From Antedon mediterranea (taxonomy: Eukaryota > Echinodermata > Crinoidea > Comatulida > Antedonidae), in assembly GCF_964355755.1 (NCBI RefSeq), contig NC_092679.1, positions 11,088,932 to 11,152,931 on the forward strand: DNA of 64,000 nucleotides. The letters are read 5' to 3'. Under the pieces are notes generated by a model. It searched no databases. It was not told where the DNA came from and saw only the letters and a program-made list of their open reading frames with translations. The position numbers and the translations under genes were made by a program. Positions 8,581 through 34,703 of the stretch are shown piece after piece. Within the stretch, counting starts at the first letter, position 1. Every line of letters begins with the position of its first letter.

Positions 8581-8630
8581 AAATTTAACACAGATCATGA
8601 AAGCGAAAGTGCTCGACAATAAGTCCTAGG

Positions 8631-13176: not shown

Positions 13177-14394
13177 ATTTGGTTATCCGCACTTGGCGGA
13201 TAACCCCTTGTTATTGTCAGGATCTTTTTTTTTTTTTTTTTTTTTTTTCTATGTTATTCTTCTTTCTTTCCCTGAATTTTGTTGGCAGCGTATCTCTAAT
13301 TCTGGCAAACAGAAGATTGTGTAACTTTTTCATAAGATTGACCTGTAACTGTAGATGTGCAGGACGTTTCGTTTTTTGACTTTAGAGTCCCGCAGCGTGA
13401 GTTACGCGCGATTTTGTGAATTTTGCGTATTTAACATAGATCTAAAACGAAAAAGCAATTTTAATTTAAACTTGGCAAAAGTGTAATTTATATCATGCGC
13501 TAACTTTCTATGGATTTAAAATGGCACTTTTCCAAAAAGTTACGCGCGCACGCGCGTTCAAAATTTCAAAATGCGAAAAATTTATTTCATATCAATTTTC
13601 TACGCGTTTCATGTCATTTTGAGCATTTCAAAAATTCCCACGCGTGCGCAATATTTTTACGCGCGCGTGCGCACGTATAGCAAAAACATCTTTTTTTTGC
13701 TTGATTTTTGATTTTTCAGCCTTCTCTAGTAATTTTACCAACTTTCAAACAATTTCGACTTAAAATCACGTCATACGAGCACGTAAAATTGAACAATTTG
13801 CGCGCGTTTTTGAAAAAAAAATTCAAAAATGTGTCAAAATTATACCTTTTTTTGAACAGTCATAGATTCTAAACTACATGGTGAATTTTATTTTTTTTTA
13901 CAAATTCTGAAAGTAGATGAGTTGTAGATATAGAATCATGCATCGATTAGGCTAATCGGACATTGTGACGTCATTGTATGGCCACTCGAATATCAAATAT
14001 AGGATTTTTTCTCTTTCGTCATAGCTCATCATATTTAATAGAGCGCATCTCCACTTATCCGTATTTCATTTCCTTCCGTTTTTATATATTGTCTAGGTCG
14101 ATCAATTATCTTTTGAATGATTCACCAATTTTAAAATTTTGATGACGTCATCATGTTCAAAAGCGTCAATAACTTTGGTCACTTATTTTCACCTATTCTG
14201 CACTGTATGTAGTACGTATACAGTACATAGTGTTATACCGTATATACTTAGAGGTGACACTAAATAGAGAGCGCACTAACATTTTTTCAACGGCATAATC
14301 GTTTTTCTCTGCGCAATATTCTAACGTATGACGTGCACGTGGCGTTTGCGCTGCGGATAAGCTAACTCGTCCGTAGTGACGTGTTCAAATTTAA
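13177..14394 (+). mobile_element. Non-autonomous Helentron-type (HINE-like) element, complete
   Basis: The 5' end starts ATTT followed by an inverted repeat GGTTATCCGC (13181-13190) and GCGGATAACC (13196-13205). The 3' end has a single GCGGATAAGC (14353-14362), then a hairpin (AACTCGTC 14364-14371 with GACGTGTT 14378-14385), then AAATTTAA, a decayed form of AAATCTAG. Both flanks are T-rich, consistent with T^T insertion. The body has a 25-nt-scale poly(T) run at 13224-13248 and repeated ACGCGCG-rich segments. It matches the architecture of 51176-52647 with different sequence in the inverted repeats. No coding. Confidence 0.65.
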
Positions 14395-16260
14395 TTATTT
14401 TTTTATTTATTTTTTTTTTTTTCTATATTCTTCTTTCTTTCCACGAATTTGTTCGCAGTGTATCTGTGTATAACTTTGTCTTAAGATTGACCTGTAGCTG
14501 TAAATGTGCAAGAAACTTCGTTGATTGATTGATTGATTGATATGATGTTAGAGTAACGCAGAGCAAGTTACGCGCGATTATATGGAATTTTATGATTGCT
14601 CATAAATTTTCAACACAAATATATTTTTGAATAAAACTTTACGAGAGTGTATTTTATAATATTGAGCAAATTTTGACATGATAAAAATTTATAATTAATT
14701 CGCGTACATTTCAGATCATTTTGCGCATTTTAAAATTTTCTAAATTATTTGCGTTTTGCTAACGCATTTGTGCGCACAGCTCGTACAAAGCGTAGAAAAA
14801 ATGTGTTTTGTAATTGATTTTTGTTGGTCATAGTCGTTTTATAGTAGATTTCACTCATTTTCATGAACTTTTATTGTAAATTAATGATGCACATGCACGT
14901 TGAACTTTAGAAATCCTGTGCTAAAGAATGGCTAATATAATGCAAATTTTGTGAAAAAATATACCTATTTTTATTCAGTTATAGCTCCTCAGTATGGCAG
15001 GTTACCCCATTTTTTGTTAATGTATTATAGAAGCTAATGAGTTGTAGATATCAATTCATGTACAATTTGTATCTAAAGGATGTTCTGACGTCACCGTTTG
15101 GCCACTCAAATTTTTAAAATAGATTTTTTTCTCTTTTGTATTATTTGATCCCATTTAATAAAGCGGATTGCGCTAGATTTTAATATGTTCTTGCCAAATC
15201 AATTATCTTTCACATGAGTTAACAAAGTGATCACGTGATTAAAACTTATGGAAATTGTTGAATTGTAGATATGAATTCATATACAAGTTTTGTTTATATG
15301 ATGTCCTCATATGGCAGTTGTTCAAAAAGTCAGATGTTTATCTCTTTCGTAAAAAATCATCGCGTTTAAAATAGAGCGCATCTCAGTTTCACGTTCCGAA
15401 ATTTTTCAAATTTGTATGTGTATATAATGTAATTATTTAGATAATTAAATTATATAACATATATAGTGTATTCTGTAATATGCTGTCAACACTGTAAACA
15501 TATTTATGTCTTACTCATAGGATGGCATAAAAATTGCCGGCGTGCCCAAAATTTTTCAACTTCTAAGAATGTATTTATTTAGATAATTATTCTCTAAAAT
15601 TGTTACCTTCATGTTTTATTTTGATGAAGTCATCATGTTAAATATAAAAATAAAAATATAGGTCTCGTAATTTTTTCTGTGCTTTACTGTATATAAGTAT
15701 ATACTAGACGTACGTACGTAAAATAGGCACAGTTCAATAAATCGCTTTTTAAAGACCGCGGCTTTCACTTTTATCTGCCTGAATTTCCTCAAAATGTCAA
15801 CATTTTGTTGCTCATAAAAATGTTCCTATCGGATGCTGCGAGGTCCTGCTATGGGGTCATGCTATAAGGTGCTATGGCCAGTAATTGGAAAGGTAGGATT
15901 TTTATTTGTTTTTTGTCATAGTTCATCACTTCAAACATATTACGCATCTCAGTTGTACGTGCCAAATTTCCTTTTAAAATAAAACATATTATGTTATCAT
16001 TGAGATGAATTATTTTCCTAAAATGGACATACTTTTATGTTTCATTTTGATGGCATCAAACAATGTTGTTCCCGTAATTTCATTTCTATACACCATAATA
16101 TACTACAGTACAACCAGTTACATGTGTGAATAATAATAATAATAATAATTACAAATTCTTGTCTTCTCTGCTCTCTGATTTGATTTAATGGATTAATGAA
16201 ATTTATCTCAGTTACGTACCAGTGAAACGTGCTCAAATAGATATAATATTTCTGATGAAA
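14395..16260. repeat. Decayed copies of the 13177 element body
   Basis: 14421 onward repeats the region after the poly(T) of the preceding element (TTCTTCTTTCTTTCC, TTACGCGCGATT, then similar ACGTCA-containing blocks) with heavy divergence. A further weak echo occurs at 15880-16080. There is a TTGA microsatellite near 14522-14541 and an AAT run at 16128-16150. No gene is supported. Confidence 0.5.
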
Positions 16261-16283
16261 CTAATATTATCACACCATAACTG

Positions 16284-16583
16284 TTAAAAATAATCTTTTA
16301 TTTTAAACAAATTGAAGAAATCACACAAATCTGTATAAAATGTGTACCGGTATTTATAAAAGCTTTCATTGGTTATTGCAAATGGTACAAAATTGTCAAC
16401 ATATAGTAGGCTGTTCATACTATACAGTAGTTCATCAACATTTTGGTGATCAGTAATTTTACTTAGTACATTATTTAAATGATAATTTGTTAGTTGAGGA
16501 TTCATTAAACGCATATTTATTGTTCTATTTATAGAAGATTCTAATTTTTTAACAGTCATTAATATGATTAATAATTTAATCAT
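16284..16583 (-). CDS. Small hypothetical ORF downstream of the Helentron ORF
   Basis: This 99-codon ORF starts MIKLLIILMTVKKLESS and ends FNLFKIKDYF. No motif is recognisable. It lies about 1 kb 3' of the giant ORF on the same strand and is AT-rich like it. It could be a terminal exon, a decayed accessory ORF or chance. There is no independent support for expression. Confidence 0.25.
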   Translation of the reverse strand: MIKLLIILMTVKKLESSINRTINMRLMNPQLTNYHLNNVLSKITDHQNVDELLYSMNSLLYVDNFVPFAITNESFYKYRYTFYTDLCDFFNLFKIKDYF

Positions 16584-16699
16584 TTGCCGCGTTTAGACAA
16601 TTGTTATGAAAGAATGACTGCATTAGTGGATGCCTAAAACTCCGGATCCCATTATAATTGAAGAGATGAAACCATTCCATTGAACACCTAAAAACCAAA

Positions 16700-17470
16700 A
16701 CAAAATAAATTAATTATTCTTGTAAATGAGTAGATTACTGTATTAGTAAATTCATGTGGACCTGTATTGATAGAAAAAAAAATGAAATTATGTATAGAAT
16801 GAAGTATTGGTAATCGTATAAAATTAAACGTATTTTCTTCTTCTGTAAACTTTTTATTTTTTAAATTACTTGAATACCGGTAGATATTGAAAGATTTTTA
16901 TCTGCACAGATTGCAACATTGCATATTCAAATTCAGAACAATATTTATAATAATATAACTCACATAAAAACAAGATTAAAATGTGTTTACTCACCACATA
17001 TTGTTTCTCCTATACAGGAGAATGACATGGGTTGAAATTACAGATTATTCACTGCCCCTCTTGCATCGATAATAAATTGATTATTTTTCCAAATGAGTAA
17101 ATTACTGTATTAGTAATTTCATGTGGACCTGGATAGATAAAAAAAATAATGTAAAAAAAACAATTATACAACTGAAATTATGTATAGACCTAATGAAGTA
17201 TTGGTAATCGTATAAAACAAAACGTATTTTCTTCTTCTGTGAAATGTAACTTTTTATTTTTAACATTACTTGAATACTGGTAGATAGTGAACGATTATTA
17301 TGTGCAGAGATTGCAACATTGCATATTCAAATTCAGAACAGTATCTATAATAATATAACTCACATAAAAACAAGATTTAAATGTGTTTAGACACCAGATA
17401 TTTTTTTTCCTATACAGGAGAATGACATGGGTTGAAGTTACAGATTACTCACTGCCCCTTGTGCATAGAG
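16700..17470 (-). repeat. Tandem 400-bp duplication 3' of the Helentron ORF, each with a hairpin
   Basis: 16700-17075 and 17080-17470 are two diverged copies with a period of about 394-400 bp. Shared landmarks are TACTGTATTAGTAA, GAAGTATTGGTAATCG, GCATATTCAAATTCAGAACA and the stem TTCTCCT/AGGAGAA around ATAC (17005-17022; in the second copy 17405-17422 with one wobble). The hairpins lie just beyond the stop codon of the giant ORF, where a Helitron 3' terminus would carry a stem-loop, but no CTAG end follows them. Confidence 0.7.
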
Positions 17471-17595
17471 AGTCATAATGATTTTCAGCTTGTTTTTATC
17501 AAATTGTTTTTTTTTATATGTATCCAGTTCTATTTTCAATTCTTAAAAAGTTTTTACAGAAATATAATTCAAATACTTAAAAACCATTGCTGTAA

Positions 17596-20500
17596 TTAAA
17601 ATTTAATTTGAATGGCTTCATGATAGCTATAATAAATTGGAATTACTTCAGCATGTACTGAATCAAGACCTTTGCTATAAACGTGATCAATCAATGTATT
17701 GTTTTCAGTGGTGGAACATGTAACATGTTGTCGGTACTGATTCTCTGACATTAAATTATTCACTCTAGAAGATTGTTTGAAAAGATTTTCATTAAAATCA
17801 CCCATTACAATACATTTTGTACTCACTTTTTGTAACTCTTCCAAATATTTTCTCAAATTTTGACAGAATTGATTAATATCATAGCTTGGGGGTCGATAAA
17901 TTACTGACACGGAAACTGAAATTGGACTTGTTATTAAGAATGAAACTGCTTCTATATCATTATTACGTATGTTTAATCTGCTTGTAAACGTGTTCTTGGT
18001 ATACACTGCAACGCCGCCATGAGCCTGATGTTTTATTTTGGAACTCAGATCATTTGTATTGGAATACGAATCATACCTTGCTTGGTGATACAATTTATAC
18101 GGCTCAATACTTACATCAAAAACATCATCATCCTTATTTAACCACGTTTCAGTTAGACATATAATACTAGAATTCATAAACAAATCATTGCACTGAAGAT
18201 CAGCAAAATGTTGTTTAAGCCCTTGAATGTTATGTAACATTATTGAAAATTTAGAATCCGAATCATGACCTTGTTTTTTACATTGTACATATGATTCCAT
18301 ATTATTTAAGCATTTCTTTATGTTTGGATCACAATAAATCAGATTAGGATTAAGATGTTCAATAGTAAGTCCAGATATTGAAGTAACACGACTGAGGGCT
18401 ACGTATGCTTGTCCAGGTGCAAAGGTATTTTTAAGGCAAACTACTGCTTCATTCATTGTCAATCCTTGGACTTTATGAACTGTGCATGCATATGCTAATT
18501 TCAGAGGAAATTGTTTTCGACTGTATTTATTCCCCATAGATTCTTTAAACATTTCAATTGCCTGAACACCGATTTCATTATTATCAAACTTTACTTTAAT
18601 AGATACTGGTTTGGCGTTACGATTGGGTTTGACTATTTCATGAACATGTCCCATACATCCATTCGTTAAGCCTTTTTTAACATCTACATTTTTAATCAAC
18701 ATCACTCTGGCATTAAGTGCAATCCACAAATAATTTAGTAAACTAGTTTGACGTGAATTCCGAGGTTTGTCACAAATTTTGGTCTGTTTCTTGGCGTTTA
18801 CTACACTATCTTCTGCTTCAATGCATACAATGTCTGTACAGGTTTTGTGCAACATTTTTTTATTCCATTCATCAACTTGTTTGTTGCGTGGGTAAATATG
18901 AACAGCATCTTCACATTCTTCACCTGTTTCACGTGATTTCAGAACTAATAAATCGTTATCAGACAAACAATCATGTTTTTCTTTTGTACGCAATTTGTTT
19001 AACAATAAAGCAAATTCTTTATCTTCTTTTTGCCTCATGATTTGATCTAACTGTACTTGCTTAAAGTTATCTACCCACAGTGAGCTTTCCAATGTGTCTT
19101 TATATAACGAACTGCCCATCACTGGGGGTAACTGATAAAAATCACCAACAGCAATTACTGAAATGTTACCAAATGGACTATCGTTGCGTACTTGTTTTAT
19201 TTGCCTTAATCGTCCGTGGATATACCAAAGTAACCTTTGATTTACCATTGATATTTCATCTATAATAACAATTTGCAACTGACGCAACTGATTACGAAGT
19301 GCACTTATTTTTTCTTCTCCAAGTGGTTGATACGGAAGTGAAATATTAATCGGGATAGACAAAGAGCTATGAATTGTTTGGCCTTTAATATTATATGCTG
19401 CGATTCCTGTAGGAGCTAATTTCAATATTGACAAATCATCGGGATTTTCCATAATTTTTCCCAGAATACGTGTCGCTTCATTATAAATACAATTTACCAA
19501 ATGACTTTTTCCTGTACCAGCGCCTCCAGTTATGAAAGTGTAAAATGCTTCAGGTTTTTTACCATTAACTTTGTCTAAACACCATTGTCTTGTCTTATAA
19601 AATATATGTTGTTGTTTTTCATTTAAAGATCGAATCATTTTGTTCAATTCTGGTCTTGGAATATTAGATGAATTAGACTCTACTTTAGATGTATGATTTT
19701 TTGGAAGTCCAAAATCTGGAATGAAAAATTCATCTTCTTCATCATCAACCTCTACATTTGGCTTTGGGTTGTCTAACCTTTCTTTTTCACTTTCTGGACA
19801 TAATAGGCTCCATGCATCTTCTTGTGGTCCAAATTTTGATAAACATTCCTGTGCTTCTTCAACATCATCAGCACTTTTTTCATACTGTTCCATGTTTCCA
19901 TGAACTATTGACTTTACCGTTTGTAATTGACAGCCACATAATTTCACACATCCTTCCTCATGAAATTGTTCGTACGTTTCAAAATTTGGAGGTTTTAACT
20001 GTTCATCTTTTCGAAATGGTAGAAATAACTGAAGTATACTCAAAAAATATTTCTCAGGTGCTGTATCCATTGGAAATCGAGGGTATCTTACTATAGCATT
20101 ACTAGTTCGTGTTCTTTTTTGGATGAATCCCAACTGTTTTTTTAACTGAAATACATTATTTTTTTGTTTATTTCCTTTCATTTCTGATGAACTCAATATT
20201 CTATATTCTGAACAAAATTTTGCAAGGCACATTTTATTAAATTCAGAACTGTTAGGTCGAGCTTTATATTTGTCGATCTTATTTGGCAACCATGCACTTA
20301 CATCATCATCTTCTTTGTTTTTAATTACACTTAGTGGTAAACTCATTCTGACAGGATTAGGTCCTACTGGGATGAATTCAACTTTCCTTGAACATTCTTT
20401 TAATCTTAAACTACAAACACGATAAATACTTTCTTGTGCAGACACTTCTCGATTATTCATATAAACATTACCAAGTTTTCGCAAACTTTGCCTAGCATCT

Positions 20501-23500
20501 TCATTGCCTTCTTTTATTTCTGATGCTGCATGATTTAACAGTAAACCCATTTCACGTTCAGATTTTGACATATATCCTATAACGTAAATTATACATGCAT
20601 ATACATTTGTAATATATTGAATATCCATATTAGCATTCCATGCTCTCAATAATGAAGGATTATATTGATTTACCCACACATCTTGAGGGTTTCTCTTTAT
20701 AACTATTTTTTCCTCAGTAGCTACACAATTATTTGCTTTCTCAAATGCACTCTGTGTAATACCTAAACTTTGGAAAAGTTCTATTGCATTTTTATATGTT
20801 TCTTCATTAGTCACAGCATCTTTTACTGAGGTTAACAGCTCCATTGCTTGTTTATTGTCATCATTATCATCATTGTCTTTATCCACAATTGTAGGTCTCA
20901 TAACAAATGTATTTCCAGAAGGTTGTCTGGGAAAGTTAAATCTGCAATTTGTTCCCTTTTTTTTACATGATTTAGAATGTCTTTTACTGTGAATTTGCAC
21001 ACTTTTAACAATTTCATTCAGTTCACGATCTACAGTTTCACATGGCACAGCACAAGAAATATATTTATCAACAAAATTAATAACTTCATTATCTTTATCT
21101 GTACCAAAAATAGGAGCATTTTCAACCCATACTAACATATGAACATGTGGACTTCCTCTCATTTGAAATTCAATTCGGTAAAAATAATCTACGACTTTAC
21201 CAATAGGCTGTGCTTCAGACAAAATTACATTTTTCAAAAAAGTATGAAAGCGTTTGTCAAACATTCTTGCAACAGTCACCGGATTTGATTTCAACAAATT
21301 ACATTTATCTGCCCATTCCAATTCTTCAATGTTTCTTTGGTCTCCTGACTGATTTAACAATGTCGTCATTATTTCTTTCCAACGGAAGTCAGCACTTGAG
21401 AATGAAAGAAAGAATGTTGGCTTTCCAATCTGTCTAACCATTGCTATTATATCTTTCTGTGTAGCTTGCCAGTACGGTGGAGTTCCACGAATTTGTTTTA
21501 AAAATTTATAACCCCTATCAGATTTTAAAATTTCCTCAATTTTGGCAACATTTTTCAAATCGGATACAGTAACTTTGCTAAAATCATCTTTTTTACTTGA
21601 CCCTTTTCGCAATGCAATGGAAATACTTGATAAAATTTGTTGAAGTTCATATAAAGATTGAGCATAAAATATGTATTCTGTATTTTGTGCAAACCTGTTA
21701 TCTATATGCATTAATCTATTATGAAAATAACGTCCGAGTGTTATTTTAACATCTCTCGTATCATGGAATGTTGGTTGGCCTGTTGGAAATAACACTGGAA
21801 ATGATTTTGCTTCATTGCTTTTATTACTTAATAATGCAATAGGGCTATTATTTTCACACGGTGCACAACAAATTATGTCATTAAAATATTCATCTACCAA
21901 ATTTTGTCGTCTGTCAACAGGTTGAAGACTTGTATCGAAGGTAACACCTACTTCTTCTTCATTTTCTTCTTCTTCATTGTTTTCATTTTCATTAGTAGTT
22001 TCACTTTCGATGTTATCTTCAGATAAATAATTGTGCCATTCTTCATTAATAGCTATATCAAAGTAGCACTTGTTATGATCTTGTAAATATCTAAGAGCTT
22101 GAATAACATTGGCAGTTTTAACAAATTTATATTTGTAATAACCTTTGTAAGACAACTTTCGCTTCAATTTTACAGATATTAATTGATCATCAACCTCTGG
22201 TCTAGGCAACATTTTTACAGTTTCAATAGTATTTGATGGTACACATACGACTGGTCCATGTATTCCATGCTGTCCACCTTTTGGTAAATTAATTAATTTC
22301 ATAAAAGGAATGTTTAATCCAATCAAATGCTGCTCTAAATTATTTAAACACCTGAGCTCAGGAGGAATATCGTATAGTTGTAAATTGTTTGAATTAGCTT
22401 CTGCAGGAACTTTCCCTTTTAGCATTTTCCTGTGGCATGTGAAACAAATCCATAAACGACATCTTGGTGATTCAACAAATTGACAAGGATTATTACATTC
22501 ATTATTACAAATATGCAAATACTTTTCATTTATACAAGCCTTATTTTTGTATTTAGCTTTGATGCACTTCATAACTTGATCTTTAAATAACAATTTAAGG
22601 CATACACAACAAACATATTCAGGACCACGAGAAACTGTTTTCCTGAAGTTTTCTAAAACAAACGCAAAATTAGTGTTTTCTCTTTTGATTTTTTCCCTAT
22701 TCTTCATGTTTTTCTTCATGATTTTTTTTCGGAACCCTTCATCACCATGATACTTTTCTGTAAATTTTTGCTTACACCTTTGCTTAACACTTTCACGGAA
22801 TTTTAAATTACCTTGATATTTCTCAGCCAATTTTAGTTTACAGTTTTGTCTAAATTTCAAATTACTCCGATACTTTTCTGCCAATTTGTCTTTACATTTT
22901 TGTCTAAATTTCAAATTACTCCGATACTTTTCTGCCAATTTGTCTTTACATTTTTGTCTAAATTTCAAATTACTTCGATACTTTTCTGCCAATTTGTCTT
23001 TGCATTTTTGTCTAAATTTCAAATTACTCCAATACTTCTCAGCCAATTTTTCTTTACAGTTTTGTCTAAATTTCAAATTACTCCGATACTTCTCAGCCAA
23101 TTTTTCTTTACAGTTTTGTCTAAATTTCAAATTACTCCGATACTTCTCTGCCAATTTTTGGGTAACGTTTTGTCGAAATGTTGGATCATTGTGATACTTT
23201 TCTTTATTTCTTTGATTATTGTTTTGCATAGTTTTACGCCTAAAGATTGTGTCATTGTTGTATTTATTCTTCTTTATTTCTTTCAAATTTTGCGCAAATT
23301 TTTCATTAAATTTATAATTTAACAAATTGTTGAATTTTTTGGTTGTTCGGTAATCAAAATCTATATTGTAGTTATGTTTAGCTTTATTTCGTACTTTAAC
23401 ATTATATTCAGGTTCACATCTATACTTTTTGTGTTGTCTTTCTCTGTTTTCTTTCCTTTTTTGGAATTTATAATTATCATCACCATATCTTATTTTTTGT

Positions 23501-26500
23501 GCCTCTTTTACTTTACGTTTCTTTTCTTCTCTGTATACAGAATCACTTTGATATTTGTTTCTGATTTCATTTGTTTCTTCTGAATTATTTTTTTCTTCTT
23601 TTTCCCGTTTATTTCTCTGTCGATTCTTTTCTCTTTCTTTTTTAATTCTATAAGATTGTTTTCGTTTTCCGTTCAATATTTTTACTCTGCTTTCTGAAAA
23701 AGGGTTTTCAACAGTTTTACTCTGTTTGTGTTTTGGTTCTATATCTTCAAATGTGTCACAAGTTTCATATCGCGTTTGCTTTCGTTTCTTTGTTGTAGAA
23801 TTCTTTACAGAAAAATTCGCCTCTGTATTTGACAGTTTATTGTGGGATGTCACATTCATATCAACTTTTCCTGTTGTTTCCTGAACATTATTTTGACTAA
23901 CATTGACAGATTCCACTACATTAAAATGCACATTCATGGTGTACAAAATATATATACCATTGTCAGTTGTAACATCATCTATTCTTCCCGGGTTTTTAGC
24001 AGAAAACAATTGCCACGTCAAAAGTTGATCATTAAATGAATAAATATCTGTATTAAGCAAGTTTGCCATTGCACTTATTTCAGTATTGGATGCCCACGTT
24101 CCATTATCCATTACTCTTTTTTTTAACACATATTCCTTAACTGATCTATACTCGTGACTAAATGTATTAATAAACAAGTCACCAGTCTCCAATAAATGAT
24201 TAGTAATTGCTCTTCTTAAAAGAAAATGATTATCTTCAGTACCAGAAATAATGTATGAAATTGCACGATAAAAACAATTACCATCACCTGTAATATTCGT
24301 AATTTGAAGAGGATGTCCAATCTGACTAGCTCTGTTAATACCACAATTCATATCGGTATGTTCACAATGAATGCCTACTTCATTACACATGTTTTTCTTT
24401 TGTGCTTCTGAGATAGGAATAAATTTAAAATTCTCGTCAGGTCTTCTTTCATACTGAACATTAACAATTTCAATATCACTATCACTTTGCCATCCATTAC
24501 TTGATGAGACATGACCTTCTTTATTATGTTTTTTGCCTTTAACGTTAGAATCAATATTCTTGTCTGGTAATCCTGTACTACATTTATATTGATAAGACGT
24601 ACTAGGTTCATCAACATCGACATTTCCAAAGTTGCTTTGTTCACAATTATCATCTAGCACAGAAGCGGAACATAACATCATAGACTTATTTTCAATATTT
24701 ACACCAGTCAGTTCAAACTCGGTGTCATGTAAATTACAGTTCATTGACCTTGCTAATCTTATACAATAGTCGTACACACCTTGCCAAGATGTACTGTAAA
24801 GTAAAATACTCTTTCCATGCTCACTAACACGACCAAATCGATCTCTTGCATGTGGATCAAATATAAGGAAACCATTTACACGTTTAATAATAGAAAATGT
24901 GCTTCTGTTGAAATTCATAAAAAATGCATCATGTTGGTGTAATTCTTGTTCAAGAGCTTGGTTTAATGACAAGGCTCCATACTCAGCCATAAATTCGAGA
25001 TTCCCATCTATTATGCCAAAAACTGATTCTTTGGGAGATATTACAAATGTGTTATCCAAGATATCCAATTCTTTCGGCAGTTCAGAAATCATTAAAAGGT
25101 CCTCGTGCATAGTGGAATCTTTCTGAATGTAACGGTACAACTCGTTTCCAAGAGTCAATATTGTATCAAGGTCTTTGGTGTAAAAATCATTTCCATTCCT
25201 CTTTGTAGAATAAAGAATAGCTACAAGACTATTTGCAACACACTGTTTACCACTTGCAAAGCCAAATCTATAATTCCCTTGATTAAAATTACCCTGTGCT
25301 ACAGTTATATTTTCATTACTATTATATACTTGTAATTCATTTATTGATTGTGTTTTCTGCCTTTTTCGTGTATTTTTTTGTTTTGGTACATCATCGATTA
25401 TCAATTCTTCCGAAAAATTATTTTTTGTTAAAACTTCAATGTCCACATCGATAGTATGTTGGTCACATTTAGGTTTAGTATGGGACCTAATTTTTTTAGT
25501 CATTGCTTTTTTGCATCCGTCATCAATTATGAATACTTCATTTTCCTCAAATTCACAACTTGCACATGTTTGATTTTTATGATCTGTACCATTACTATCA
25601 ATTATTCTACTTCTGTCATTTATTTTGCTATTATGTTGTGCTTTCGCATCGTCAGTCGCTGTGTTGTCGTTTTCTACAGTACATTCTATTTTAAAATCCT
25701 CGTCAGTTTTCGTTTCAGAATTGTCTTTATTACCCATGTTCTTTATATCTTTCATAGTATCGCAATCATTCTTTAAATTCACATTACCTTGTGCTTTTTT
25801 GTTATCAATCTTCTTAGTTTTGACAAAACGACCTTTGTTATTTCGTAAACGTTTCGAACCACCACCTGATTGTTGTTGTATTCCGTTTGTTACTTTTGTA
25901 TTTTTCAAAACATCACACATAGGCCTACCACTGTCGTCAAATATTGTTTGTGAATTTCCCAATACATTCGTTTTAGAATTTTCTTTGTTGTATTCTCTGT
26001 AAGTATTTGTATTCATATTCCATTCCATTTTGTTATTATTTCGTCTTTCATAGAAATCTTTTACACCTTTGCCAATATATTTTACACCTGGTTCTAAACT
26101 TATACCATTTATAACGGGCTTTCTCCTTTTCTTATTTCCTCTATTTTTACATCTTTTTTTTTTGTTGTCGGTTCTTTTCTTTGATCTTACTCTCATCCAA
26201 TCACTACCAAGTAAATCTTCACTTCCTGTTTGTTGACATTTTAATTTGGCATTATTACAACGTTTTTCTTTATTTTTCGTTAATTCTGGAAAGTCTGCAG
26301 TGACAGATTCATCAGGTTCTAGAATCGTATATCTATTGAAATGACAGGGAATACCTATTTCACCCAACATGTTATTAACAAAATTACTATTCCCACACAT
26401 TGAACAAATCCAAATTACCCTGGAATTACATAGTTTGTCTTCAAAAACATCTCTTACACATTTCACATGAAAATATTGACTACAACAGTCACATGTTATG

Positions 26501-26907
26501 CAATTGTCGTCTACTTTCACTTCAATATTACAGAAATCGCATGTATCATCAAACTCTGAAGTGACCTCTGTACCATAAGATAATATGTTTATGATATCAT
26601 CAATTATTCCTTTAAATTCAGTTGTATCTTTCATAAATTCACAATTGACATTACCTGTATCATCATTTCTGTCGTCTTTGACATTCTCAGTTGAACAGCA
26701 TTCATCAAGTAGGTCCAAGATGTCATTAACAACTATTTTAAATTCTGCTGTCTTATCCATAACTCCATTATTAACATTACCAGTTGTATTGACAAAAATC
26801 TGCTTTTTACTTGTAACTTCTTTATTCACATTCTTACACAAATAAATTATCATTGTAAAGATAATCAACAAAAAGATACCAACTAATGTTATGAATTCCA
26901 TATCCAT
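17596..26907 (-). CDS. Giant Helentron (Helitron2-type) Rep-helicase polyprotein with protease and EEP endonuclease domains
   Basis: This is one open frame of 3103 codons with no stop or frameshift. The first ATG has a purine at -3 and G at +4. Domains in order: hydrophobic segment 5-23; internal repeat 41-68/84-110; PHD-type finger (C123, C126, C136, C139, H147, C150, C168, C171, with W166); basic stretch 249-264; C76/tegument-type cysteine protease-like domain about 540-720 (C556, D684, H686); OTU protease about 868-1000 (GDGNC with C878, H994); basic repeats 1119-1400; Cys-rich DUF6570-like domain 1433-1570; Helitron Rep about 1720-2120 with HUH at 1921-1923 and YVIGY tyrosines 2108 and 2112; PIF1 helicase 2425-2860 (Walker A GGAGTGKS 2461-2468, IIDEIS, VGDFYQLPPV, VHKVQG, AYVALSRVTS); and EEP nuclease 2886-3103 (N2893, E2920, GDFN 3036-3039, D3074, H3096). 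The HUH nuclease nicks and joins ssDNA and the helicase unwinds it. The proteases may cut ubiquitin chains or the polyprotein. A C-terminal EEP domain separates Helentrons from canonical Helitrons. The start is uncertain: M50 is the next in-frame candidate noted and would drop the hydrophobic segment. Confidence 0.93.
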   Translation of the reverse strand: MDMEFITLVGIFLLIIFTMIIYLCKNVNKEVTSKKQIFVNTTGNVNNGVMDKTAEFKIVVNDILDLLDECCSTENVKDDRNDDTGNVNCEFMKDTTEFKGIIDDIINILSYGTEVTSEFDDTCDFCNIEVKVDDNCITCDCCSQYFHVKCVRDVFEDKLCNSRVIWICSMCGNSNFVNNMLGEIGIPCHFNRYTILEPDESVTADFPELTKNKEKRCNNAKLKCQQTGSEDLLGSDWMRVRSKKRTDNKKKRCKNRGNKKRRKPVINGISLEPGVKYIGKGVKDFYERRNNNKMEWNMNTNTYREYNKENSKTNVLGNSQTIFDDSGRPMCDVLKNTKVTNGIQQQSGGGSKRLRNNKGRFVKTKKIDNKKAQGNVNLKNDCDTMKDIKNMGNKDNSETKTDEDFKIECTVENDNTATDDAKAQHNSKINDRSRIIDSNGTDHKNQTCASCEFEENEVFIIDDGCKKAMTKKIRSHTKPKCDQHTIDVDIEVLTKNNFSEELIIDDVPKQKNTRKRQKTQSINELQVYNSNENITVAQGNFNQGNYRFGFASGKQCVANSLVAILYSTKRNGNDFYTKDLDTILTLGNELYRYIQKDSTMHEDLLMISELPKELDILDNTFVISPKESVFGIIDGNLEFMAEYGALSLNQALEQELHQHDAFFMNFNRSTFSIIKRVNGFLIFDPHARDRFGRVSEHGKSILLYSTSWQGVYDYCIRLARSMNCNLHDTEFELTGVNIENKSMMLCSASVLDDNCEQSNFGNVDVDEPSTSYQYKCSTGLPDKNIDSNVKGKKHNKEGHVSSSNGWQSDSDIEIVNVQYERRPDENFKFIPISEAQKKNMCNEVGIHCEHTDMNCGINRASQIGHPLQITNITGDGNCFYRAISYIISGTEDNHFLLRRAITNHLLETGDLFINTFSHEYRSVKEYVLKKRVMDNGTWASNTEISAMANLLNTDIYSFNDQLLTWQLFSAKNPGRIDDVTTDNGIYILYTMNVHFNVVESVNVSQNNVQETTGKVDMNVTSHNKLSNTEANFSVKNSTTKKRKQTRYETCDTFEDIEPKHKQSKTVENPFSESRVKILNGKRKQSYRIKKEREKNRQRNKREKEEKNNSEETNEIRNKYQSDSVYREEKKRKVKEAQKIRYGDDNYKFQKRKENRERQHKKYRCEPEYNVKVRNKAKHNYNIDFDYRTTKKFNNLLNYKFNEKFAQNLKEIKKNKYNNDTIFRRKTMQNNNQRNKEKYHNDPTFRQNVTQKLAEKYRSNLKFRQNCKEKLAEKYRSNLKFRQNCKEKLAEKYWSNLKFRQKCKDKLAEKYRSNLKFRQKCKDKLAEKYRSNLKFRQKCKDKLAEKYRSNLKFRQNCKLKLAEKYQGNLKFRESVKQRCKQKFTEKYHGDEGFRKKIMKKNMKNREKIKRENTNFAFVLENFRKTVSRGPEYVCCVCLKLLFKDQVMKCIKAKYKNKACINEKYLHICNNECNNPCQFVESPRCRLWICFTCHRKMLKGKVPAEANSNNLQLYDIPPELRCLNNLEQHLIGLNIPFMKLINLPKGGQHGIHGPVVCVPSNTIETVKMLPRPEVDDQLISVKLKRKLSYKGYYKYKFVKTANVIQALRYLQDHNKCYFDIAINEEWHNYLSEDNIESETTNENENNEEEENEEEVGVTFDTSLQPVDRRQNLVDEYFNDIICCAPCENNSPIALLSNKSNEAKSFPVLFPTGQPTFHDTRDVKITLGRYFHNRLMHIDNRFAQNTEYIFYAQSLYELQQILSSISIALRKGSSKKDDFSKVTVSDLKNVAKIEEILKSDRGYKFLKQIRGTPPYWQATQKDIIAMVRQIGKPTFFLSFSSADFRWKEIMTTLLNQSGDQRNIEELEWADKCNLLKSNPVTVARMFDKRFHTFLKNVILSEAQPIGKVVDYFYRIEFQMRGSPHVHMLVWVENAPIFGTDKDNEVINFVDKYISCAVPCETVDRELNEIVKSVQIHSKRHSKSCKKKGTNCRFNFPRQPSGNTFVMRPTIVDKDNDDNDDNKQAMELLTSVKDAVTNEETYKNAIELFQSLGITQSAFEKANNCVATEEKIVIKRNPQDVWVNQYNPSLLRAWNANMDIQYITNVYACIIYVIGYMSKSEREMGLLLNHAASEIKEGNEDARQSLRKLGNVYMNNREVSAQESIYRVCSLRLKECSRKVEFIPVGPNPVRMSLPLSVIKNKEDDDVSAWLPNKIDKYKARPNSSEFNKMCLAKFCSEYRILSSSEMKGNKQKNNVFQLKKQLGFIQKRTRTSNAIVRYPRFPMDTAPEKYFLSILQLFLPFRKDEQLKPPNFETYEQFHEEGCVKLCGCQLQTVKSIVHGNMEQYEKSADDVEEAQECLSKFGPQEDAWSLLCPESEKERLDNPKPNVEVDDEEDEFFIPDFGLPKNHTSKVESNSSNIPRPELNKMIRSLNEKQQHIFYKTRQWCLDKVNGKKPEAFYTFITGGAGTGKSHLVNCIYNEATRILGKIMENPDDLSILKLAPTGIAAYNIKGQTIHSSLSIPINISLPYQPLGEEKISALRNQLRQLQIVIIDEISMVNQRLLWYIHGRLRQIKQVRNDSPFGNISVIAVGDFYQLPPVMGSSLYKDTLESSLWVDNFKQVQLDQIMRQKEDKEFALLLNKLRTKEKHDCLSDNDLLVLKSRETGEECEDAVHIYPRNKQVDEWNKKMLHKTCTDIVCIEAEDSVVNAKKQTKICDKPRNSRQTSLLNYLWIALNARVMLIKNVDVKKGLTNGCMGHVHEIVKPNRNAKPVSIKVKFDNNEIGVQAIEMFKESMGNKYSRKQFPLKLAYACTVHKVQGLTMNEAVVCLKNTFAPGQAYVALSRVTSISGLTIEHLNPNLIYCDPNIKKCLNNMESYVQCKKQGHDSDSKFSIMLHNIQGLKQHFADLQCNDLFMNSSIICLTETWLNKDDDVFDVSIEPYKLYHQARYDSYSNTNDLSSKIKHQAHGGVAVYTKNTFTSRLNIRNNDIEAVSFLITSPISVSVSVIYRPPSYDINQFCQNLRKYLEELQKVSTKCIVMGDFNENLFKQSSRVNNLMSENQYRQHVTCSTTENNTLIDHVYSKGLDSVHAEVIPIYYSYHEAIQIKF
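22777..23157 (-). repeat. Coding minisatellite: seven 18-residue (54-bp) repeats inside the Helentron protein
   Basis: Residues 1251-1377 are seven head-to-tail copies of KLAEKYRSNLKFRQNCKE-type units, near-identical at DNA level (54-bp period). Older, diverged copies extend from about 1119 to 1400 (KYxxDxxFRxK pattern). The units are strongly basic and predicted helical, a plausible nucleic-acid-binding or spacer region between the protease part and the Rep part. The near identity of the central copies indicates recent unequal exchange or slippage. Confidence 0.9.
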
Positions 26908-27450
26908 TATTCAAAATTTGTATAAGAAACAAACCTACAAATTTCTTCAAATTAATAAACTTTGTATTCTGCAATTCCAATGAATATTACAATTAAGTTC
27001 TTTTTATCAATTCAAGAAATCCTTGCTAAAACAAAATAAATTATTAAAATTCCAAAAACAATTCAATTATATATTGTCTTTTGTTTCTATGATTTTTAAT
27101 TTTTGTCCTAATTTTTTTTCTTTTAATATATTTTTTTTTTGTCTGCTTTTTTTTCAATAGTTCAATTATACAATTTCACTGAATAAAAAAATTAGCTTCT
27201 GCTTAATATTGGCTTGATGAAATACTCTATATTATTTTTAACTTCTCTTTAATACTTGGTTATGCTAAATAGTTGGTTATGCTAATTTTTATTCTTTTTA
27301 CAATTCTACTTAATAACAGATTCAAATAAAAGTGATCTTTAAATCTTCTTTAATTAATTCTTTTGTAATAAACTCTGTTTAATATTTATTTCTTTATAAT
27401 AAGCTTCTGTTTTATTCTTCAAACTTTTGTTTATATAATCAAACTTTAAC
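26908..27450 (-). other. AT-rich leader upstream of the Helentron ORF
   Basis: There is no ORF of interest. The stretch is pyrimidine-rich on the plus strand with degenerate echoes of the 90-bp minisatellite (AATAAACTTCTGTTTATT-like words). It is probably 5' UTR of the giant ORF. Confidence 0.4.
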
Positions 27451-27725
27451 TTTACACTTTTGCTTTTGCAAAAATGGTTTTGTAATAAACTTTTGTTTAT
27501 TAGTTGTTTCCTTGTGATTAACTTCTGTTATCTTCAAGGTTTGACACTTTTGCTTTTGCAAAAATGGTTTTGTAATAAACTTTTGTTTATTAGTTGTTTC
27601 CTTGTGATTAACTTTTGTTATCTTCAAGGTTTTACACTTTTGCTTTTGCAAAAATGGTTTGTAATAAACTTTTGTTTATTAGTTTTTTCCTTGTGATAAA
27701 CTTCTGTTTACTTCAAGGTTTTACT
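27451..27725 (-). repeat. Three-copy 90-bp minisatellite
   Basis: Copies start at about 27451, 27541 and 27631 with a 90-bp period. Each contains ACACTTTTGCTTTTGCAAAA, GGTTTTGTAATAAAC and GTTTCCTTGTGAT. The last copy is partly degraded. The short ORFs on both strands here are translations of the repeat and are not genes. Confidence 0.85.
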
Positions 27726-27805
27726 GAATGTTTCAAAGATACTTTTAAAAAATGTTTAAAAAGAAATTGTGCATAAATATTAAAATTCGGTAACCCCTCG
27801 TAGAA

Positions 27806-27859
27806 ACTCTCTTTAGAGAGTGGATCTTTTTCTAAAGACCCGGATCTCTTCTGAGATCC
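27806..27859 (-). promoter_or_regulatory. Three consecutive hairpins in the putative Helentron leader
   Basis: Hairpin 1: ACTCTCT/AGAGAGT with a 2-nt loop (27806-27821). Hairpin 2: GGATCTTT/AAAGACC with one bulged A (27822-27840). Hairpin 3: GGATCTC/GAGATCC around TTCT (27842-27859). They abut with almost no spacer. They could be a structured RNA leader, a protein-binding DNA structure or part of the Helentron 5' terminus. A TATATAA sequence lies at 27868-27874 just outside. Confidence 0.6.
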
Positions 27860-27882
27860 AGTGGGTTTATATAAGACAGTCA

Positions 27883-27912
27883 CCTACAATAAAAGAAAAA
27901 AAAAAGAGTTAG
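27883..27912 (-). other. Candidate 3' splice acceptor upstream of the Helentron ORF
   Basis: On the minus strand, a run of about 20 pyrimidines (27891-27912) leads to ATTGTAG followed by GTGACTGTC, with the intron ending at 27884. This is a strong-looking acceptor. Paired with the donor at 34322, or with the GTGAGTA donors repeated in the 28.5-32.6 kb array, it would put a 5' UTR intron before the giant ORF. This comes from sequence patterns only. Confidence 0.45.
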
Positions 27913-28489
27913 TTATTAATTTTAAGATACACTGTACAGTACTAAGAATTTGTAAAAACACTGATTTATCTACTGATTCAATTTATAATATACACATCCC
28001 CCTTGTGGAATGTAACATGATCTATTGGGCCTAGCAAAACAAATTAGGACCAACTCACTACTAAATTCAGGATAGACCCATTTTATAAAATTGCAAGTTT
28101 GTGTCTGGAGAAACTGACCACCACATTTATGTTAAAAAGGATGATTGTCCCAAATTTTGAAGTAAATTATGATAATATATTTGTGACTTTGGTTTATACA
28201 ATATAAATAAATCACTATAGAAGATATTTTGACCTAAAAATATGTCAAAACTTCATTACATGGAATGTGTCGGAAACAAATTCTTTCATAACAAGTTCAC
28301 CTTCACAATTTTTCAACTTCTACGAAATCAACTTGTATTTTTGTTGCTTTTAATCAAACACTTGTATCAAATGATAATTCACATAAATTGTTATATTGTA
28401 ATATTCAATAAAGTCCTAGTATAAACATATAATCTGAAAATAGGTTTAATTATTCAATGTTCTAATAAAACAGAATTTTATACACAAAA
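27913..28489. other. AT-rich unassigned stretch
   Basis: No coding, RNA or repeat feature was recognised between the candidate acceptor and the tandem array. Confidence 0.4.
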
Positions 28490-31400
28490 ATATTTGGTCA
28501 CTCAGTATTGTAAATTTACAGACAACACATGTTTATCAATTAAGGGAGGGCATAAAGTAAGGAAAATATGTTTTTTCCGTTTTACAAATAATTTTCTAAT
28601 ACTCACAGCTGTAACTGATACTGTATATTTTCTCTACAACTACAATCTAAAATATAAAAGGAAAATCATTAATAATTGCAATAAACAACATTAACACTTT
28701 TTCAAAATCAACATGCTTCTTAATCGAAAAAGTAAGAAATTTCCTCAAAATGACTTTAGGTATGGGCCGGTTGATTGGGGTATACATGTTGTCTTAATAC
28801 TAATTTCATTTAATAATTTATTCACAAACAATAAAATCTGAATTATGTAAATGTTTCATAATAGAAAATGCCTACAAAATGACAGGCAACTGTTCACGAA
28901 GTAAGGAAAATATGTTTTCTCCATTTAACAGTTAATCTACTAATACTCACAGCTGTAGCTAACACTGTATATTTTCTACAATCTAAAAAAAACAAGGAAA
29001 ACATTGATAATGGCAATAAACAACATTAACCCTTTTGCTAAATCAACATGCTTCTTAATCAATGTCTGAAAAATTAGGAAATTTCCTCAAAATGACTTTG
29101 GGTATGGGCCGGCTGATTGGGGTCTACATGTTGTCTCAATACTACTTTCATTTAATATCTCATTCACAAACCATAAAATCTGAATTATTTAAATGTTTCA
29201 TAATATAAAATGTCTACAAAATAACCGGCAATAGTTCACAAAGTAAGGAAAATATGTTTTCTCCGTTTAACAGATAATCTACTAATACTCACAGCTGTAG
29301 CTCAAACTGTATATTTTCTACAATCTAAAAAAATACAAGGAAAAACATTGATAATTGTAATAAACAACATTAACACTTTTTCCAAATCAACACGCTTCTT
29401 AATCAATGTCTGAAAAATTAAGAAATTTCCTCAAAATGACTTTGGGTATGAGACGGCTGATTAGGGCAGGCAACAGTTCACAAAGTAAGGAAAATATGTT
29501 TTCTCCGTTTAACAGATAATCTACTGATACTCACAGTTGTAGCTCAAACTGTATATTTTCTACAATCTAAAAAAAAACAAGGAAAAACATTGATAATGGT
29601 AATAAACAACATTAACACTTTTTCCAAATCAATACGCTTCTTAATCAATGTCTGAAAAATTAAGAAATTTCCTCAAAATGACTTTGGGTATGAGACGGCT
29701 GATTAGGGCAGGCAACAGTTCACAAAGTAAGGAAAATATGTTTTCTCCGTTTAACAGATAATCTACGGATACTCACAGCTGTAGCTGAAACTGTATATTT
29801 TCTACAATCTAAAAAAAAAACAAGGAAAAACATCGATAATGGTAATAAACAACATTAACACTTTTTCCAAATCAACAAGCTTCTTAATCAATGTCTGAAA
29901 AATTAAGAAATTTCCTCAAAATAACTTTGGGTATGGGCCGGCTGATTGAGGTCTACATGTTGTCTCAATACTACTTTCATTTAATATCTTATTCACAAAC
30001 CATAAAATCTGAATTATGTAAATGTTTCATAATACAAAATGTCTACAAAATAACAGGCAACAGTTCACAAAGTAAGAAAAATATGTTTTCTCCGTTTAAC
30101 AGATAAACTACTAATACTCACAGCTGTAGCTCAAACTGTATATTTTCTACAATCTAAAAAAAAAACAAGGAAAAACATTGATAATGGTAATAAACAACAT
30201 TAACACTTTTTCCAAATCAACACGCTTCTTAATCAATGTCTGAAAAATTAAGAAATTTCCTCAAAATGACTTTGGGTATGAGACGGCTGATTAGGGCAGG
30301 CAACAGTTCACAAAGTAAGGAAAATATGTTTTCTCCGTTTAACAGATAATCTACTGATACTCACAGCTGTAGCTCAAACTGTATATTTTCTACAATCTAA
30401 AAAAAAACAAGGAAAAACATTGATAATGGTAATAAACAACATTAACACTTTTTCCAAATAACACGCTTCTTAATCAATGTCTGAAAAATTAAGAAATTTC
30501 CTCAAAATGACTTTGGGTATGAGACGGCTGATTAGGGCAGGCAACAGTTCACAAAGTAAGGAAAATATGTTTTCTCCGTTTAACAGATAATCTACTGATA
30601 CTCACAGCTGTAGCTGAAACTGTATATTTTCTACAATCTAAAAAAAAAACAAGGAAAAACATTGATAATGGTAATAAACAACATTAACACTTTTTCCAAA
30701 TCAACAAGCTTCTTAATCAATGTCTGAAAAATTAAGAAATTTCCTCAAAATAACTTTGGGTATGGGCCGGCTGATTGGGGTCTACATGTTGTCTCAATAC
30801 TACTTTCATTTAATATCTCATTCACAAACCATAAAATCTGAATTATGTAAATGTTTCATAATATAAAATGCCTACAAAATAACAGGCAACAGTTCAAAAA
30901 GTAAGGAAAATATGTTTTTTCCGTTTAATAGATAATCTACTAATACTCACAGCTGTAGCTCAAACTGTATATTTTCTACAATCTAAAAAAAAAACAAGGA
31001 AAAACATTGATAATGGTAATAAACAACATTAACACTTTTTCCAAATCAACAAGCTTCCTATTCAATGTCTGAAAAATTAAGAAATTTCCTCAAAATTACT
31101 TTGGGTATGAGACGGCTGATTAGGGCAGGCAACAGTTCACAAAGTAAGGAAAATATGTTTTCTCCTTTTAACAGATAATCTACTGATACTCACAGCTGTA
31201 GCTCAAACTGTATATTTTCTACAATCTAAAAAAAAACAAGGAAAAACATTGATAATGGTAATAAACAACATTAACACTTTTTCCAAATCAACACGCTTCT
31301 TAATCAATGTCTGAAAAATTAAGAAATTTCCTCAAAATGACTTTGGGTATGAGACGGCTAATTAGGGCAGGCAACAGTTCACAAAGTAAGGAAAATATGT

Positions 31401-32600
31401 TTTCTCCGTTTAATAGATAATCTACTGATACTCACAGCTGTAGCTGAAACTGTATATTTTCTACAATCTAAAAAAAAAACAAGGAAAAACATTGATAATG
31501 GTAATAAACAACATTAACACTTTTTCCAAATCAACACGCTTCTTAATCAATGTCTGAAAAATTAAGAAATTTCCTCAAAATGACTTTGGGTATGAGACGG
31601 CTAATTAGGGCAGGCAACAGTTCACAAAGTAAGGAAAATATGTTTTCTCCGTTTAATAGATAATCTACTGATACTCACAGCTGTAGCTCAAACTGTATAT
31701 TTTCTACAATCTAAAAAAAAAACAAGGAAAAACATTGATAATGGTAATAAACAACATTAACACTTTTTCCAAATCAACATGCTTCTTAATCAATGTCTGA
31801 AAAATTAGGAAATTTCCTCAAAATGACTTTGGGTATGGGCCGGCTGATTGCGGCCTACATGTTGTCTCAATGGTAATTTCATTTAATTGTTTGATCACAA
31901 ACAATAAAATCTGAATTATGTAAATGTTTCATAATACAAAATGTCTACAAAATAACAGGCAACAGTTCACAAAGTAAGAAAAATATGTTTTCTCCGTTTA
32001 ACAGATAATCTACTAATACTCACAGCTGTAGCTCAAACTGTATATTTTCTACAATCTAAAAAAAAAACAAGGAAAAACATTGATAATGGTAATAAACAAC
32101 ATTAACACTTTTTCCAAATCAACAAGCTTCCTATTCAATGTCTGAAAAATTAAGAAATTTCCTCAAAATGACTTTGGGTATGAGACGGCTGATTAGGGCA
32201 GGCAACATTTCACAAAGTAAGGAAAATATGTTTTCTCCGTTTAACAGATAATCTACTGATACTCACAGTTTTAGCTGAAACTCTATATTTTCTACAATCT
32301 AAAAAAAACAAAGGAAAAACATTGATAATTGTAATAAACATTAACACTTTTTCCAAATCAACACGCTTCTTAATCAATGTCTGAAAAATTAAGAAATTTC
32401 CTCAAAATGTCTTTGGGTATGAAACGGCTGATTAGGGCAGGCAACAGTTCACAAAGTAAGGAAAATATGTTTTCTCTGTTTAACAGATAATCTACTAATA
32501 CTCACAGCTGTAGCTCAAACTGTATATTTTCTACAATCTAAAAAAAACAAGGAAAAACATTGATAATGGCAATAAACAACATTAACATTTTTTTCATGAG
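28490..32600 (-). repeat. Higher-order tandem array with long (344-bp) and short (242-bp) units
   Basis: The landmark ACTCACAGCTGTAGCT recurs at about 28601, 28945, 29287, 29529, 29771, 30115, 30359, 30601, 30946, 31189, 31431, 31674, 32019, 32262 and 32501. Spacings alternate between about 344 and 242 bp in the order L L S S L S S L S S S L S S. Short units lack a 100-bp segment (CTACATGTTGTCTCAATAC through TTCATAATA). Copies are more than 90% alike by eye. On the minus strand each unit contains CTGTGAGTA, a splice-donor-like sequence. No ORF is conserved. Confidence 0.9.
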
Positions 32601-33150
32601 TATATGTAAAACTATAATTTTTAATAGTTTGGAAAATATTATAATTGTCAAGAAGGTGCATGGTTCTTAAATTTAAAAATAAATGTTGTTTTTCGGTAAC
32701 AATCCGACAAAATCATTAATAAATGTTGGCCCCTCTCTAATATTTCTATGTTGATTAATTCAATTTTTTTAAACTATATACTATATATTTTGATTATTGA
32801 TTTTAAAGCATATTGAAATAAATTTTAATGTAAAAATGCTGGTTTAGCTTACTGTAATAACACTGGTCACAGACTGACATGTCAGTCTGTGACTAACTCG
32901 GTAACAACCAGACACTTTTTAATATCATATAAAAATGTAAAAATAAGGTTTTAAAAAAAAGTAACCTTATGAGTGTATGTAAAGCTATAATTTTTAATAG
33001 TTTGGAAAATATTATAATTGTCTAGAAGGTACATGGTTCTTAAATTAAAAAAATATTTTTTGGTAACAACCCGACAAAATTATTAATAATTATGTTGGCC
33101 CCTCCTTAATATTTCTATGTTGATTAATTCAATTTTTTTAAACAAAATCT
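32591..33150. repeat. Two-copy 180-bp repeat beside the array
   Basis: 32591-32775 and 32967-33145 share AACTATAATTTTTAATAG..., AAGGTRCATGGTTCTTAAAT and TGTTGGCCCCTC blocks about 375 bp apart. Between them lies an inverted pair ACTGACATGTCAGT at about 32874-32888. Confidence 0.6.
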
Positions 33151-33429
33151 CAAACAATATATTTAGTTCTTTAATTCTAAAAAGAAATGACATGTATAAA
33201 TTAGGATTTAGTTGTCTGTTATAGGATTTAAGTAAACCTCATATTGTTTTATTTTTTAAGTTTTCTAAATATCATTATTTTAAATGGAAATATGTCTGTA
33301 TATATCTCATTTTTTTTTTTACCACTTAAATATCCTGAAAGTATATAACATTAGCTTTAGTTTGATATCAAACATGTTAAGACTGCTAAAAGTTGAAAAT
33401 TTTCAAAATCCAAAAAAAAAATTGTGGAA

Positions 33430-33770
33430 TTGCCCTAATACTCACAGCTGTAGCTGAAACTGTAAATCTTCTGTTAATAAAAAACAATTACAATCTAAAA
33501 AATACAAGGAAAAACATTGATAATGGCAATAAACAACATTAACACTTTTTCCAAATCAACAAACTTCTTAATCAATGTCTGAAAAATTAGGAAATTTCCT
33601 TAAAATGACTTTGGCTATGGGCCAGCTAATTGGGGCCGACATGTTGTCTCAATGGTAATTTCATTTAATAGTTTGATCACAAACAATAAAATTTGAATTA
33701 TGTAAATGTTTCATAATAGTATAAATGCCTACAAAATAACAGGCAACACTTCACTCCCAATCATGAGACC
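33430..33770 (-). repeat. Detached diverged unit of the higher-order array
   Basis: CTCACAGCTGTAGCTGAAAC at about 33441 begins one more long-type unit, more diverged than those of the main array and separated from it by about 900 bp. Confidence 0.75.
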
Positions 33771-34684: not shown

Positions 34685-34703
34685 TTATAGTTTTAGCATT
34701 CTA

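Follow-up and report, generated by a model that had tools for sequence, protein, structure and literature searches.

A 21.5-kb Helentron with a long multidomain replication protein, and its arrays, in the genome of the crinoid Antedon mediterranea

A single open frame of 3,103 codons (17596..26907, minus strand), running from ATG to stop, was found in the window, that is, the stretch of 64,000 nucleotides of Antedon mediterranea DNA analysed here. It is the real, intact replication protein of a Helentron, with ~40 uninterrupted, mutually divergent copies in the genome. The best overall explanation of the data, to which a probability of roughly 0.9 is assigned, is an intact autonomous Helentron whose protein joins a PHD-like finger, a VTD and an OTU domain in one chain and which would move by the mechanism of its family. 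The element represents an unusually complete example and, to judge from its sequence, is a recently active one.

An earlier note on this DNA had described 3103 uninterrupted codons. That description is borne out, with the addition that the frame, encoding a RepHel-endonuclease multidomain protein of 3,103 aa, lies on the minus strand, which the note did not state; the plus-strand translation of 17596-26907 contains stops throughout. At ~31% GC, stops are calculated to make up ~8% of random codons, so that 3,103 open codons cannot be ascribed to chance. No further long ORF was found in the element (~13179-34686).

The genome assembly (354 Mb in 18 contigs) was searched with domain profiles. The Helitron_like_N model gave 87 matches, 39 of which, the window copy included, have frames of 2,826-3,181 codons; two more divergent lineages (57% identity) have frames of 2,581 and 2,685 codons. 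Matches to the VTD, DUF6570 and OTU models were observed inside the same 39 frames, at corresponding places. Eleven further copies, read whole, are single ORFs of 2,568-3,180 aa, with 57-95% identity to the window protein. The EEP domain is not recognisable in copy L021, and some copies of the family are broken. The copies are situated on many chromosomes and vary by indels in the repeats and linkers; these differences indicate that they do not represent one sequence assembled many times. The earlier note had taken the lack of stops in 9.3 kb as a sign of recent function and had proposed a search for other intact copies and an empty site. The search returned the 39 long frames (2,800 codons or more) and a paralogous empty site, which together with the low dN/dS of the enzymatic domains point to recent function.

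Termini, target site and class of the element

The termini were defined by comparing flanks in eight 3′ regions and six 5′ regions. The ends common to other copies, together with the empty site, delimit a mobile unit of ~21.5 kb (13179..34686, minus strand), with its 5′ terminus at the high coordinate and its 3′ hairpin at the low one; two A residues at the edge may belong to either side. The 5′ terminus, AACTAGATTTGAACTCGTCACTACGGACGAGTTAGGTTATCCGC (34643..34686, minus strand), includes a palindrome (34654-34675) and the 10-mer GGTTATCCGC (34643-34652). This 10-mer recurs in the 3′ terminal hairpin, GGTTATCCGC-CAAGT-GCGGATAACC (13181..13205, minus strand), which was identified by flank comparison and genome-wide matches. 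The 5′ terminus matched 906 places in the genome with up to three mismatches and the 3′ hairpin 822 with up to one, and the reversed control gave 0 in both cases.

When the joined flanks were used as a query, many copies of an unrelated repeat were found to cross the junction without the element. Two of these copies read GCTAAAACAATAAATAAAGAG, where the window reads GCTAAAACTATAA, the element and then AAATAAAGAG. The target was thus an A-run, and it was not duplicated.

The internal layout was determined as well (all features on the minus strand). The 5′ leader contains a satellite-like array of ~240-bp tandem repeats, ~4 kb long (28551..32596), and, directly upstream of the ORF, 90-bp tandem repeats (27451..27724); two direct copies of a ~400-bp repeat are situated in the 3′ non-coding region (16704..17469). 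Flank comparison revealed an appended non-autonomous unit (HINE) of 1.2 kb (13179..14397), which has its own degenerate 5′ terminus (14396) and shares the 3′ end of the element. The same block was present downstream of each of the eight copies whose flanks were compared, and the mobile unit looks like a fusion of an autonomous Helentron and its HINE.

It is apparent from several features that the element is to be classed as a Helentron. Rep motif 2, which in Helentrons is (F/Y)xR near (V/I)ExQxRGSPHxH (PMC4067079), reads YFYRIEFQMRGSPHVH; a PIF1-type helicase is fused to Rep; an AP/EEP endonuclease, with SYH in place of SDH, forms the C-terminus; palindromic subterminal repeats and a 3′ palindrome are present; the target is T-rich (A-rich) and, at the empty site, not duplicated; and 1.2-kb non-autonomous partners (HINEs) have the same ends. 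The marks of canonical Helitrons (5′-TC ... CTRR-3′ ends, an A^T target and GLPH in Rep) were not found in the window element, which has the ends (A)CTAG...AACC(A), the target A^A and GSPH in Rep. That the element is an autonomous Helentron had been claimed in the earlier note; the 39 long frames, low dN/dS in the enzymatic domains, typical ends and empty site bear this out.

A further hairpin was noted in the window at ~51180-51207 (plus-strand coordinates), where the minus strand reads GGTTATATGC...GCATATAACC, preceded by GATTTTGACAGAATCAAGA. Its layout is like that of a Helentron 3′ end, and it is possibly the terminus of a related, divergent HINE. Elsewhere in the window (38692-42655, 46895-48106, 52945-54942 and 5979-9800), a Gypsy-like gag-pol set, reverse transcriptase/RNase H fragments and a LINE-type reverse transcriptase were observed.

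Arrays and the proposed mechanism

Many of the long copies occur in same-strand groups. In three stretches between neighbouring ORFs, nothing but element sequence was seen within the reach of the alignments: the 3′ region, two to four or more HINE units and the next 5′ leader. One array on C1 (~14.151-14.194 Mb) was read from flank to flank. It is 43.5 kb long and comprises one full Helentron, the rest being HINEs, with 18 clear 5′ termini (~20 when degenerate ones are counted) and 13 hairpins. At eight 3′-to-5′ joints, exactly two A residues lie between CC and CTAG. The units are mostly 84-94% identical, and one duplicated pair or block is 98-99% identical. Genome-wide, there are 272 exact head-to-tail (3′-to-5′) joints, and in 171 cases a hairpin is followed by poly-A and then by another 3′ tail; the reversed controls gave 0 for both. 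Dense family termini were also seen over ~227 kb at C1:22.979-23.206 Mb, where one strand carries four long Helentron frames and numerous 1.2-kb units. As traced from terminus positions only, this region is probably one giant array.

By analogy with the family, the HUH tyrosines would nick at the 5′ terminus, PIF1 would peel one strand away, replication would stop at the 3′ hairpin and the EEP domain would nick a poly-A/poly-T target. The VTD, and probably the OTU domain too, would remove ubiquitin, as expected from the tested zebrafish relatives; for the window VTD, we infer this activity from homology with those relatives. Removal of ubiquitin might plausibly stabilise the transposition protein or blunt the host response. 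New copies would often insert within or next to the 3′ end of an older copy, because that end has its own poly-A run and flanking A residues. Such self-targeted entry would yield head-to-tail arrays, stacked 3′ tails and composite units: exact joints would mark entries at the A residues that follow an older hairpin, and stacked tails entries into the poly-A that immediately precedes the hairpin. Composites, such as the Helentron with its appended HINE, could then be mobilised by termination at the first hairpin met. The fullest form of this reading is put forward tentatively, at a little under even odds: a currently active Helentron, with a chromatin-reading PHD finger and two unrelated deubiquitinases, has repeatedly inserted into its own older poly-A/hairpin regions, thereby fusing with its HINE and assembling arrays, tens to hundreds of kb in extent, from coding units of 20 kb and non-coding units of 1.2 kb.

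A possible, though less likely, alternative is that the arrays arose by rolling-circle read-through, with concatemers inserted at once rather than by successive self-targeted insertions. The joints are exact, like that of the circular Helraiser intermediate; a read-through origin has been proposed for tandem Helitron arrays (PMC5876387), and inner tandem copies are often 3′-truncated (PMC7492417), as was also seen here. Adjacent array units are mostly only 84-94% identical, however, and the 171 stacked 3′ tails split by poly-A are those expected from insertion into the poly-A of an older copy. A recent concatemer as the sole origin of the arrays was rejected, given that level of identity and the single clear block at 98-99%. 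A simple bracket model, with one 3′ hairpin for each 5′ terminus, also fails in the 43.5-kb array (~20 termini versus 13 hairpins). The approximately seven surplus 5′ termini are beyond self-targeting alone, and repeated mobilisation of composites or unequal exchange must have played a part as well. The arrays illustrate how a transposon can pass into satellite-like DNA.

The domain chain and its conservation

The protein was compared with domain profiles, as the earlier note had proposed, and six Pfam domains were confirmed, from the VTD to Exo_endo_phos (all coordinates that follow are on the minus strand). The VTD, or herpesvirus tegument-type deubiquitinase domain (Herpes_teg_N/VTD, residues 542-689, E 3e-8; 24841..25284), has its Cys in GKQCVANS and its Asp-x-His in FDPH. 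In a profile comparison with 8ADD, the solved VTD of a zebrafish Helitron (E 4.5e-10), the catalytic Cys and Asp-x-His of this putative papain-like domain were aligned. A viral origin of the tegument-like domain was rejected, as the best profile match was to the zebrafish Helitron VTD and not to a viral protein. No relative was detected in IMG/VR with the Rep-helicase alignment as query. The OTU cysteine protease domain (residues 874-1001; 23905..24288) was detected by Pfam over residues 874-956 (E 3e-10) and matched the OTUD5 structure 3TMO (E 6e-6). It has the Asp-Gly-Asn-Cys motif, in GDGNCFYRA, and a distal catalytic His in NVHF; GDGNCFYR and NVHF/NHF are present in 12 of 12 copies. Two different cysteine protease-like domains are therefore present, as the note had claimed, and so are its coding repeats and DUF6570-like domain. 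The repeats are basic, with 54-bp (18-aa) units in tandem, 6.7 copies in the window (22799..23159) and 1 to 10 units across 12 copies; DUF6570 occupies residues 1497-1624 (E 1e-19; 22036..22419).

The HUH Rep endonuclease follows (Helitron_like_N, residues 1728-1926, E 7e-37; 21130..21726). Its motif 2, with the diagnostic residues of the Helentron type (PMC4067079), is kept in 12 copies, and in the Rep tyrosine motif YACIIYVIGY (20572..20601) the Tyr positions are kept in 12 of 12. The PIF1 helicase (residues 2428-2864; 18316..19626; Pfam match to residues 2428-2630, E 3e-29) has the Walker A motif GGAGTGKS and the Walker B motif IIDEIS. The chain ends with the AP-like EEP endonuclease (residues 2892-3103; 17599..18234), which was recognised by Pfam (Exo_endo_phos, residues 2892-3081, E 1e-10) and by its motifs.

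In two respects the earlier description stood in part. Every catalytic motif had been said to be present; this is so for HUH, PIF1 and the remaining EEP motifs (N, E, GDFN, IDH and the final His), but the SDH of EEP reads SYH. Every window-family copy with an EEP domain, including those at only 57% identity, has this replacement, whereas SDH is retained in a sister Helentron family of this genome (L040-L042, compared with window 17596-18234). What we take to be the catalytic pair of AP endonucleases, the IDH Asp and the final His, is kept in the window family. With the Asp of SDH missing family-wide, activity of this domain may be regarded as less certain. The second case is the PHD finger. 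All C4HC3 ligands of this PHD-like zinc finger (residues 123-173; 26389..26541) are there, but its match to PF00628 lies under the curated Pfam cut-off (E 0.005 for the window copy, 1e-4 and 2e-4 for relatives). The finger is missing from L018, L019 and L020.

Selection was assessed by pairwise Nei-Gojobori estimates of dN/dS among copies of the family. Values were 0.07-0.16 for HUH, 0.11-0.34 for PIF1, 0.12-0.30 for OTU, 0.03-0.17 for DUF6570 and 0.18-0.25 for EEP (pairs in which both copies have the domain); those for the VTD were 0.11-0.30, save for one comparison at 0.49 (L021 versus L022). Linkers gave ~0.4 to >1 in most comparisons. The PHD-like finger gave 0.19-0.39, compared with 0.47-0.74 in its two flanks. 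Across lineages down to 57% identity, the VTD Cys and Asp-x-His, the OTU Asp, Cys and His, the HUH histidines, the tyrosines and the Walker motifs are kept. On these estimates, the core of the chain is held under purifying selection in many copies, and the linkers are relaxed. As the VTD and the OTU domain are both constrained, removal of ubiquitin would seem to be of benefit to a rolling-circle element, a question raised in PMC9741609.

The copies have not evolved wholly apart. The window ORF and L023 share an identical run of 1,181 bases at their 5′ ends, with 296 of 9,246 sites differing overall and a maximum run of 318 after shuffling, whereas L025 is closest to the window ORF over the last 400 codons. 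Family copies have probably exchanged segments, giving mosaic ORFs.

It is improbable that the VTD and OTU domains are mere passengers, captured from the host and without a role in transposition. Rolling-circle elements do capture host sequence, and the sister Helentron family is without a VTD match, but a dN/dS of ~0.1-0.3, the retained catalytic residues and the much faster evolution of the adjacent linkers speak against this. Still less probable is a domesticated host gene of Helentron origin, retained for a host function. A long intact frame under purifying selection would fit, as would the domestication of VTD domains known from insects and other animals (PMC9741609). The dozens of copies dispersed over many chromosomes, the equality of frame lengths between chromosomes, the intact termini and the empty site do not. 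Finally, an assembly artefact fusing a Helentron to an adjacent gene with protease domains, which the length of the chain and the repeat-rich region might suggest and which the earlier note had named as grounds for refutation, was rejected as exceedingly unlikely, because independent copies in the genome (the same core chain, in the same order and in one frame, at 39 loci, and 11 further full copies 57-95% identical) differ by indels.

Comparison with known Helentrons

VTD domains inside Helentrons have been published for vertebrates, insects, cnidarians and molluscs, OTU accompanies the VTD in 121 of these elements, and cleavage of ubiquitin was demonstrated with three purified zebrafish Helentron VTDs (PMC9741609). 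OTU in Helentrons had been noted earlier (PMC4067079). The chain of VTD, OTU, Rep, helicase and endonuclease is thus a described one, and most of the domain chain seen here is already known from other animals. The earlier note had placed the chain at the extreme of the family. Its length of 3,103 aa supports this, RepHel proteins with extra domains being given as '>2,000 aa' in a 2019 review (PMC6431247), but the combination of VTD and OTU had already been published (PMC9741609). Among the extra domains, VTD and OTU are accordingly not new to Helentrons, while for the PHD-like finger no earlier report was found. A literature search for PHD or DUF6570 with Helitron returned no earlier report, which, with the incomplete coverage of such a search, is weak evidence of novelty. 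The additions made here are the constrained PHD-like finger missing from some lineages, the SYH of EEP, an OTU position unlike that of the sister family, the mosaic ORFs and the non-autonomous partner fused at the 3′ end.

The zebrafish DrT1/DrT2 Helentrons (PMC9741609; 8ADD) resemble the window element in Rep, PIF1 helicase, C-terminal AP-type endonuclease and a VTD with Cys and Asp-x-His. Compared with the VTD/OTU Helentrons of PMC9741609, the window element adds the PHD-like finger, the 18-aa coding repeats and an EEP with SYH; element boundaries and arrays, which are not described in the passages of that paper compared here, were established for the window family. The Helentrons and HINEs of mite, mosquito and Drosophila (PMC4067079) share with it Rep motif 2, palindromic subterminal repeats, a 3′ palindrome, a poly-T/poly-A target without duplication and non-autonomous partners that outnumber the autonomous ones. 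In those Helentrons OTU is an additional ORF, whereas in the window element it lies within the main ORF; the window element, in contrast to them, is 21.5 kb long and has a HINE joined to its autonomous unit at the 3′ end.

A tandem arrangement of Helitrons has been described before (PMC5876387, PMC7492417). The oyster Cg_HINE elements, with their satellite-like central repeats (PMC7492417), are like the window family in having Helentron-type ends with tandem-repeat arrays and a T-rich target that is not duplicated; whole elements in tandem, the inner ones truncated at the 3′ end, are mentioned for them too. For these abundant oyster HINEs no autonomous partner could be found (PMC7492417), whereas that of the window family was identified and itself has a ~4-kb array of 240-bp repeats. 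One genome thus holds ~40 long intact frames of several lineages, plus HINEs, so that the link between autonomous and non-autonomous elements, target choice and the role of the deubiquitinases can be studied in one place.

The sister Helentron family of the same genome (C6:11.57M, C8:12.20M and C1:6.99M) shares DUF6570, OTU, HUH and an SDH-type EEP in one locus. It is without a VTD match, and its OTU follows DUF6570 and precedes HUH, while the OTU of the window family comes before DUF6570. This difference in position between Helentron lineages suggests separate acquisition or shuffling of the domain.

Two other groups of sequences were observed in the genome. An OTU-domain protein occurs in ~15 copies with equal scores, mostly with a 716-codon frame (e.g. 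C1:22634815, C5:3622936 and C9:7262804), and apparently belongs to another mobile element with an OTU domain. A second kind of Helitron (C7:8918426, C1:19630172, C5:12374108 and C1:29681497) gave stronger Helitron_like_N scores, and its frames of 1,132-1,452 codons look intact.
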